A DNA stretch of 37,746 bases from an uncultured Bacilli bacterium. GTDB lineage: Bacteria > Bacillota_I > Bacilli_A > RF39 > UBA660. Where the stretch lies: contig CALVSK010000006.1 of NCBI GenBank assembly GCA_944359015.1, forward strand, positions 1 to 37,746. Direction: 5' to 3'. Positions within the stretch are counted from its first letter, which is position 1. Every line of letters starts with the position of its first letter. This document shows positions 32,916 to 33,540 of this stretch, in pieces. Both the position numbers and the translations under genes were made by a program. A model generated the notes under the pieces. It was given only the letters and a program-made list of their open reading frames with translations. It ran no database searches and was not told the DNA's origin.

Positions 32916-32939
32916 AGGCTTTATTATAATTAATTTGTA

Positions 32940-32968
32940 TTGCTTAAATTAAAAAAATTTGTTATATT
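32940..32968 (+). promoter_or_regulatory. Promoter of small RNA 1
   Basis: TTGCTT (32940-32945), spacer of 17 and TATATT (32963-32968). The spacer is identical to that of the promoter at 33293. Confidence 0.65.
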
Positions 32969-32974
32969 ATAAAT

Positions 32975-33053
32975 GTAAGTGTTACCCCTAGTGGATAATG
33001 CCTGCATTTTTGTTGCAGACACTATACCTGAACAAGGCTAGTGTCTATTTTTT
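32975..33053 (+). ncRNA. Predicted small RNA 1, antisense to the 3' end of the peptide gene
   Basis: A ~79-nt unit runs from its own promoter to a terminator: AGACACTA (33017-33024) with TAGTGTCT (33039-33046), 14-nt loop and six T's. A second hairpin, CTGCA/TGCAG, precedes it. No open reading frame with a ribosome binding site is present. The unit is convergent with the peptide gene at 33052-33123, touches its stop codon, and would base-pair with its 3' UTR. Confidence 0.6.
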
Positions 33054-33123
33054 ATATTAACCGTAATATAATTACAAGTAACATAATTATGATTAATAAA
33101 AGAAATCTTCTTTCTTCTTTCAT
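33052..33123 (-). CDS. 23-residue hydrophobic peptide, candidate type I toxin
   Basis: The ORF starts with MKEERRF and continues with an almost unbroken run of Leu, Ile, Val and Met (residues 8-20), then RLI and a TAA stop. One membrane-spanning helix with a charged N-terminus is expected. A perfect ribosome binding site AAAGGAGG (33131-33138 on the minus strand) is 7 nt before the ATG. A minus-strand promoter lies ~95 bp upstream. The long leader contains CCTGCTTT, which can pair with the ribosome binding site at 7 of 8 positions and could hide it. Flanking antisense small RNAs suggest a type I toxin-antitoxin locus. The sequence is unlike Fst, TxpA or Ldr as I know them. Toxicity is untested. 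Confidence 0.6.
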   Translation of the reverse strand: MKEERRFLLLIIIMLLVIILRLI

Positions 33124-33154
33124 CTCTTTGCCTCCTTTTATCCAAAACCCCCAT

Positions 33155-33195
33155 AAAGAGTAGTCATAGATTACTCAGATTTAAAGCAGGCACTA
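33155..33195. repeat. 41-nt repeat, copy in the peptide mRNA leader
   Basis: The plus-strand sequence here matches 33325-33365 at 37 of 41 positions. Because the peptide mRNA is read from the minus strand, small RNA 2 is complementary to this part of its 5' UTR. It contains the hairpin GAGTAGT/ATTACTC. Confidence 0.8.
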
Positions 33196-33218
33196 CCACA
33201 AGTAGGTAACAGTTAAAT

Positions 33219-33247
33219 ATTTTAAATATAAAATTATATAATTACAA
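33219..33247 (-). promoter_or_regulatory. Promoter of the hydrophobic peptide mRNA
   Basis: On the minus strand TTGTAA (33242-33247), 17 bp and TAAAAT (33219-33224). Transcription would start near 33212, giving an ~89-nt leader. Confidence 0.55.
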
Positions 33248-33292
33248 GAAATATCGCTCGTAAAGTTTCGACAAAAAATATGAGTAAAATAA

Positions 33293-33321
33293 TTGTTTAA
33301 ATTAAAAAAATTTGTTATCTT
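33293..33321 (+). promoter_or_regulatory. Promoter of small RNA 2
   Basis: TTGTTT (33293-33298), 17 bp and TATCTT (33316-33321); near-identical over ~30 bp to the promoter of small RNA 1. Confidence 0.6.
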
Positions 33322-33327
33322 ATAAAA

Positions 33328-33394
33328 GAGTAGTAATAGATTACTCAGAATTAAAGTGGGCACTATACTTGAACAAAGCTAGTGTCTATTTTTA
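33328..33394 (+). ncRNA. Predicted small RNA 2, complementary to the peptide mRNA leader
   Basis: A ~67-nt unit begins with hairpin GAGTAGT/ATTACTC (33328-33346) and ends with terminator GGCACTA (33359-33365) / TAGTGTC (33380-33386) plus T's. The 41-nt segment 33325-33365 is a near-copy of 33155-33195, so the RNA can pair with the 5' UTR of the peptide mRNA. The terminator and flank are almost identical to those of small RNA 1, so it could also pair with sequence just past the peptide stop codon. No peptide with a ribosome binding site is present. Confidence 0.6.
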
Positions 33395-33491
33395 TATTAG
33401 ATAATTTAGTTGAATAAATAAACTTTTTTATAATAACGTAATACATTAAATTAACCTAATTAAAATGGGGGTTTTCAATTAAAAAAAAATG

Positions 33492-33500
33492 TGTTATAAT
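33492..33500 (+). promoter_or_regulatory. Extended -10 promoter of the rimP-nusA operon
   Basis: TGTTATAAT fits TGnTATAAT, giving a start near 33507 and a ~54-nt leader. Confidence 0.65.
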
Positions 33501-33515
33501 GTATTTGCAATTTTT

Positions 33516-33540
33516 AAGTGGGCAGAAATTCCCACTTTTA
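33516..33540 (+). promoter_or_regulatory. Leader hairpin before rimP, possible attenuator
   Basis: AAGTGGG (33516-33522) pairs perfectly with CCCACTT (33531-33537) around an 8-nt loop and is followed by TTTATTATTA. It is a weak intrinsic terminator or a 5' stabilising hairpin. Confidence 0.5.

Follow-up and report, generated by a model that had tools for sequence, protein, structure and literature searches.

The role of chromosomal type I toxin-antitoxin modules is a long-standing question, and most of them have been tied to phages, plasmids, the SOS response or general stress. A locus on contig CALVSK010000006.1 (GCA_944359015.1), from an uncultured gut bacterium of the RF39/UBA660 lineage of the Bacilli, raises this question anew: what might a short hydrophobic peptide gene flanked by structured small RNA genes be doing in such an organism? 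The stretch of DNA analysed here, referred to as the window, comprises 37,746 nt of this contig, and its genome is coded G000. The locus is intergenic, with a UvrD-like helicase gene on one side and rimP-nusA-infB on the other. It probably belongs to a family of type I toxin-antitoxin-like modules that occurs in many copies, has not been described before and is linked to sporulation, and in which a peptide toxin restrained by antisense RNA would be switched on by the phosphorylated form of Spo0A (Spo0A~P). Comparison with related genomes reveals the module, its reading frame, its RNA fold, its Spo0A (0A) boxes and the complementarity of its RNA ends, together with Spo0A and other sporulation genes.

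A Recurrent Module

The locus is composed of the following elements, numbered along the plus strand of the window.

32940–32968, plus strand: antitoxin promoter (TTGCTT, 17 nt, TG-extended TATATT); no other part of the family is as well conserved as its −35, −10 and start region
32975–33053, plus strand: antitoxin RNA (unit 1), with a 5′ hairpin P1 (about 32979–33001), a variable linker and a terminator stem (33018–33045) followed by a U-tract
33052–33123, minus strand: toxin-like peptide of 23 aa, MKEERRFLLLIIIMLLVIILRLI
33131–33138, minus strand: ribosome-binding site (RBS), AAAGGAGG, 7 nt before the ATG; a Shine-Dalgarno (SD)-like site precedes most toxin starts of the family
33124–33213, minus strand: 5′ leader of the toxin mRNA, starting near (A)CTGTTACC, with a 5′ segment that resembles the antitoxin 5′ end
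33183–33191, minus strand: anti-SD, GCCTGCTTT, forming 8 of 9 pairs with AAAGGAGGC
33219–33247, minus strand: toxin promoter (TTGTAA, 17 nt, TAAAAT)
33257–33273, minus strand: 0A box region, with TGTCGAA at 33273–33267 and a degenerate second box, TTACGAG, 10 bp on
33293–33393, plus strand: unit 2, an orphan chimeric RNA gene made of an antitoxin promoter (33293–33321), a complement of the toxin leader (33325–33365) and an antitoxin terminator

An earlier note on this DNA had described the 23-codon open reading frame (ORF) with its perfect RBS, flanked by two plus-strand promoter-to-terminator units of which the first converges on the peptide stop codon, and this layout was found in place. The promoters of the two units are identical at 33 of 35 nt (32939–32973 and 33292–33326) and their terminators at 31 of 33 (33020–33052 and 33361–33393), the 41-nt leader-complement segment of unit 2 agrees with 33155–33195 at 37 positions, and GCCTGCTTT in the leader can indeed pair with the RBS. 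These elements are not the product of chance, because the stretch from 32938 to 33275 recurs in many relatives, from which 87 distinct modules could be assembled. Four further features had escaped the earlier note: the Spo0A box, the inverted-repeat relationship that links the 5′ end of the toxin mRNA to that of the convergent unit 1 RNA, a broken second copy of the module, and the absence of unit 2 from every fetched relative.

The earlier note had proposed searching relatives for the peptide with the same flanking repeats, and such a search recovered many copies of the module in the genus. In a DNA search of 59 relatives, several members of the genus proved to contain the 32938–33275 stretch, commonly as multiple copies or tandem arrays. 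An alignment of about 30 full copies showed conservation of the antitoxin promoter together with the antitoxin 5′ end, of the terminator, of the peptide frame and its RBS, of the leader, and of the toxin promoter along with the motif upstream of it. A profile of the antitoxin promoter located about 90 antitoxin units across the fetched loci; the 87 modules parsed from them encode peptides mostly of 22–29 aa, and clustering the 77 with a recognisable leader at 50% identity separates nine classes of peptide. When searched with a covariance model built on the antitoxin RNA (R1), 25 of 30 genus genomes gave matches, as many as 12 in a single genome, and five gave none. Outside the genus the module is rare: R1 matches six of 395 genomes of the class, own-genus ones counted among them, and, under stricter filters, two of 88 genomes of the family, both of the same genus. 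The module extends to at least one other genus of the family, in which a genome carries nine copies, with the same layout where it could be parsed. A pattern scan of genome contigs returned 61 stretches, nearly all from metagenome-assembled genomes of uncultured Bacilli. No match to the module was found in viral, phage and plasmid collections, and a phage or plasmid origin was rejected on these grounds.

The genome of the window holds one complete copy and a second, nearly identical one split across two contig ends (G000:C22:18127 and G000:C18:1), which lacks the unit 2 promoter beyond its −35 region; as a repeat, this second module probably broke the assembly. Elsewhere, antitoxin-like units without a recognisable downstream toxin, or with a divergent one (L139, L123), were seen in L089, L139, L123 and L049:1717, and are possible solo antitoxins.

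The Antitoxin RNA and the Peptide

The RNA of unit 1 measures about 61–97 nt over 47 aligned members, and up to 100 nt in others, with a consensus consisting of a 5′ hairpin (of the GUUACC...GGUAAC type), the variable linker and the terminator. The covariation sought in the earlier note is present in these 47 sequences: six of 11 predicted pairs in P1 and the terminator have changed on both sides with pairing kept, and at terminator pair 53–92, for instance, 30 sequences have GC and 14 have AU. R1 matches the window at 32975–33051 (E = 1.8e-14), the window sequence itself being part of the model. No matching Rfam family was found for the window or nine related loci, and the weak matches to PISRT1 and MIR319 were discarded as chance hits in AT-rich DNA. 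A conserved extra hairpin in the linker was considered and rejected as weakly supported (mean z −0.8), and a YUNR motif occurs in 77 of 85 cases, although a motif so short is frequent by chance. The antitoxin promoter appears strong, of housekeeping type and constitutive. The antitoxin gene adjoins or overlaps that of the toxin, and its promoter, structured RNA and terminator are conserved; from the convergent layout, its RNA is predicted to be complementary to the toxin mRNA in the 3′ part of the latter.

Both the peptide frame and its RBS are kept across the modules of the family. Pairwise codon comparison within classes yields a nonsynonymous-to-synonymous ratio (pN/pS) of 0.37, in line with purifying selection but a descriptive value given the non-independence of the pairs, and the constraint falls on the peptide itself because the ORF, its last codons apart, lies outside the antitoxin RNA. 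As the earlier note had held, the peptide is unrelated to known families: searches of 10 representative toxins against Pfam and NCBIfam up to E = 10 gave chance matches only, with none to the Fst family. In several classes short conserved charged ends flank a hydrophobic core, and the peptide is presumably membrane-active. In L049, L053, L056, L017 and similar loci an in-frame ATG lies 18 nt upstream of the toxin start, over the SD region, and could add six residues to the peptide (MKGAKD..., MKVGEV...).

Spo0A Boxes and Sporulation Genes

The putative link to sporulation resides in the toxin promoter. Within the 55 nt tested upstream of its −35 element, TGTCGA[AT] is present in 70 of 77 modules, against a mean of 1.7 and a maximum of six modules in dinucleotide shuffles, and the same box occurs in one of 106 antitoxin promoters. 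TGTCGAA is the experimentally defined core of the 0A box (PMC3485338). Counted from the GTTACC of the leader, most boxes fall at −47, −57 and −77 where the promoter is of one type and at −63 where it is of the other, and the spacing of paired boxes is 10, 20 or 30 bp in all but one of 29 cases, mostly 10 bp; the first box of the window (33273–33267, minus strand) is perfect. Pattern searches, on which the genome-wide counts rest, detected the tandem pattern TGTCGAANNNTGTCGAA 33 times in 25 genomes, with 32 occurrences in 15 genus genomes and one in the 10 from outside the genus, and the reversed tandem pattern not once in the same 25.

The corresponding regulator is available in these organisms. 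Uncultured, reduced orders of the Bacilli are known to include sporulating lineages (PMC10868615). Genes for Spo0A, SpoIVA and SpoIIGA are present in the genome of the window and in the majority of genus genomes, and Spo0A_C is matched in 82 of 88 family members. The spoIIAA promoter, used as a positive control, carries TGTCGAA in this and the other readable genus genomes. In the genus this promoter shows a conserved TTTGTCGAA box followed by TGTTTAAA (L245, which is G000:C18, and L240–L250). Tandem boxes with 10-bp spacing also stand upstream of dnaA (L162, G012:C6) and of miaB, cspA and penicillin-binding protein genes (L145, L149, L148, L167, L156), in the genus, as named from their translations without a profile check; these genes are candidates for direct regulation by Spo0A in a lineage that is uncultured and has a reduced genome.

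The same boxes would also suit a peptide that is no toxin but a small membrane protein active in sporulation, with the antisense RNA only sharpening its timing. SpoVM is an example of a small sporulation protein, and the short conserved charged ends around the hydrophobic core in several classes fit such a role. A copy number ranging from 0 to 12, the tandem arrays and the presence of nine toxin classes on a single RNA scaffold nonetheless look like addiction or toxin modules, and the five genus genomes without a match likewise speak against a sporulation protein, making this explanation unlikely, if the most credible of the alternatives considered here.

Predicted Pairing of the Toxin mRNA

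The first 28 or so nt of the leader resemble the antitoxin 5′ end, and, provided that transcription of the mRNA continues across the antitoxin gene, the leader 5′ segment is therefore complementary to the 3′ end of the same mRNA. The mean energy of this end pairing is −31.8 kcal/mol for cognate ends, −28.0 for non-cognate ends of the same class and −22.0 for those of other classes, and the cognate preference is significant at p 0.005 or less (permutation, one module per class). A fold-back is predicted in 68 of 76 mRNAs, with a mean pairing of 0.74 against 0.15 when the leader 5′ segment is shuffled. Gene conversion between the inverted ends could be an alternative cause of their likeness.

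The leader also contains GCCUGCUUU, which can pair with AAAGGAGGC at the RBS. By eye, the anti-SD and the SD change in step, GCCUACUUU accompanying AAAGUAGGU in L017 and CCUGCUUUC accompanying GAAAGUAGG in L225, with a variant also in L056; statistical support for this is weak. With 3′ ends assumed, the predicted opening of the SD is 0.28 for the full-length mRNA and 0.16 for an mRNA without its 3′ end. Unit 1 is antisense to the 3′ region of the mRNA only, and its 5′ end is of the same sense as the leader; a role for it as antisense to the leader was rejected, with a duplex energy of −32.9 kcal/mol against a shuffle mean of −30.8 and 91 of 300 shuffles as good.

Unit 2

Unit 2 consists of an antitoxin promoter followed by the leader complement, which is joined at a shared GCACTA to the antitoxin terminator. 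This junction is absent from every fetched relative locus, and unit 2 was hence rejected as a general feature of the family. The duplex of its RNA with the leader has an energy of −59.4 kcal/mol, a value equalled by none of 300 shuffles, and this RNA is the only one here that pairs with both the leader and the terminator region. Unit 2 may be a private, leader-targeting antisense RNA or a relic; by covering the anti-SD, it could lead either to mRNA decay or to release of the SD.

These properties bear on the claim of the earlier note that the locus follows the logic of Fst/par systems with two RNAs. The reading as a type I toxin-antitoxin-like locus is supported by the peptide with its conserved frame and RBS, the conserved structured RNA and its antisense overlap at the 3′ end. 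The second RNA was found in no fetched relative, and the analogy with Fst/par is not supported as it stands: the conserved unit 1 is antisense to the 3′ region only, and pairs with the leader no better than shuffled sequences. If the locus were a system of the par/Fst type, its functional antitoxin would pair with leader and terminator alike, and unit 2 would be the main antitoxin, in keeping with its strong pairing to the leader and the shared terminator. None of the fetched relatives nevertheless has unit 2, while all modules have unit 1, and in covering the anti-SD it could open rather than close the RBS; together with the lack of any Fst family match, this renders such a system quite improbable. 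Less probable still is a repeat akin to a miniature inverted-repeat transposable element, with transposon ends for inverted repeats and the peptide and RNA as passengers or accidents, since the multiple copies, tandem arrays, near-inverted ends and probable disruption of the assembly by the repeat would suit it, but codon-level constraint, compensatory RNA pairs, 0A box positions specific to promoter class and cognate-specific ends are unexpected of passengers, no transposase is seen beside the module in the window, and the viral, phage and plasmid collections hold no match.

Outside the module, the window carries at 33472–33537 a rimP promoter and a terminator-like leader hairpin (AAGTGGGCAGAAATTCCCACTT plus a T-rich tail), upstream of rimP.

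Comparison with Known Systems

The Fst/RNAII pair of the par locus of Enterococcus pAD1 has in common with the module its convergent RNAs, an RNA-only antitoxin and a short hydrophobic toxin. It differs in having a shared bidirectional terminator, where the terminator here serves the plus strand only, and no Fst toxin or RNA family match was found in the module, whose unit 1 is not antisense to the leader. The module is thus not a member of the Fst family, by sequence as by the lack of a conserved leader-directed antisense RNA. BsrG/SR4 and TxpA/RatA of Bacillus subtilis combine a short hydrophobic peptide, as here, with extensive pairing of toxin and antitoxin RNAs at their 3′ ends (PMC6562991), which the layout of the module predicts as well. 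Their peptide and RNA sequences are unrelated to those of the module, which matches no Pfam, NCBIfam or Rfam family; in B. subtilis they are borne on prophages or the skin element, whereas the module has no phage or plasmid match; and the module is set apart by the near-identical inverted repeats at its RNA 5′ ends and the Spo0A boxes on its toxin promoter.

The CD2517.1/RCd8-type modules of Clostridioides difficile (PMC6563280) likewise show convergent overlapping genes and several copies per genome, as well as the regulated transcription that is predicted here, and their toxins, as the peptides here, lack homology to other type I toxins. They carry sigma-B promoters on both toxin and antitoxin, in contrast to the Spo0A boxes on the toxin promoter only, and no sequence relation to the module was detected. 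In hok/Sok and AapA/IsoA (PMC6733600) the ends of the toxin mRNA pair, as is predicted here, and the SD is under structural control. In these systems the full-length folded mRNA is inert and is activated by 3′ trimming (PMC6733600), while the SD of the module is predicted to be a little more accessible in the full-length fold than in the truncated fold. The module would work as a type I toxin-antitoxin of the 3′-overlap kind, as represented by BsrG/SR4, TxpA/RatA and the C. difficile modules with convergent genes. The open-access literature searched contained no system that joins new families of peptide and RNA to Spo0A boxes restricted to the toxin side and to a multi-copy distribution in genome-reduced Bacilli that have sporulation genes.

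A Model for the Module

In the proposed mechanism, the strong housekeeping-type promoter would keep the short structured antisense RNA of unit 1 present during growth. The convergent gene would make the hydrophobic peptide of 22–29 aa under a promoter of sigma-A type, whose −35 element closely follows the Spo0A boxes, a position from which Spo0A~P should turn the peptide on at commitment towards sporulation. If the toxin mRNA runs into the antitoxin gene, the antitoxin would be fully complementary to its 3′ part, and the resulting duplex should expose the mRNA to RNase III. Furthermore, antitoxin pairing should break the pairing between the mRNA 5′ and 3′ ends, upon which the leader anti-SD would close the RBS. 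The precedent is SR4, which closes the toxin SD by refolding bsrG mRNA, in a system where the toxin RBS is pre-sequestered (PMC6562991). As loss of the 3′ end is predicted to leave the SD less accessible, an antitoxin bound there would free the leader for SD closure, a mode that would be that of SR4 and opposite in sign to that of AapA3. The toxin would be made only once its transcription outruns that of the antitoxin. The order of these RNA steps we infer from sequence, as we do toxicity, transcription and activation by Spo0A.

Several observations weigh against this model. Occlusion by the anti-SD is modest (probability of being unpaired 0.17, against 0.29 in shuffles), and its class-specific co-evolution with the SD was rejected as not significant. 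No intrinsic terminator was found for the toxin mRNA, so that its 3′ end, the antisense overlap and the end-to-end pairing are assumed. With regard to regulation, the second 0A box of the window is degenerate, and no perfect box lies in the 330 nt upstream of spoIIGA. Spo0A was not seen in three of 18 genus genomes, two of which are less than 85% complete, and one of the three (G009) still has boxed modules. Finally, the family beyond the genus has Spo0A and almost no modules, implying that the module is dispensable for sporulation.

A bolder version of the model is offered tentatively, its chances falling somewhat short of even. Type I modules would here stand directly under the master regulator of sporulation, pairing a constitutive RNA antitoxin with a membrane peptide driven by Spo0A~P, in a dozen diversified copies, in gut spore-formers with tiny genomes. 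They would act as a programmed brake, a lysis device or a fate-commitment device at the onset of sporulation, and in the genome of the window unit 2 would be a trans-acting RNA still in evolution, which by pairing with the leader's anti-SD would adjust toxin output or even turn it on.

The family can be viewed as an experiment of nature in how RNAs are designed: opposing RNAs have near-identical 5′ ends, mRNAs are predicted to fold back, and the variable linkers may keep paralogous toxin-antitoxin pairs apart. In dozens of independent copies, the sequences by themselves suggest that one particular developmental switch, Spo0A, controls the toxin but leaves the antitoxin alone, and hence provide a testable hypothesis in which toxin peptides would be part of sporulation entry in genome-reduced, uncultured Bacilli.
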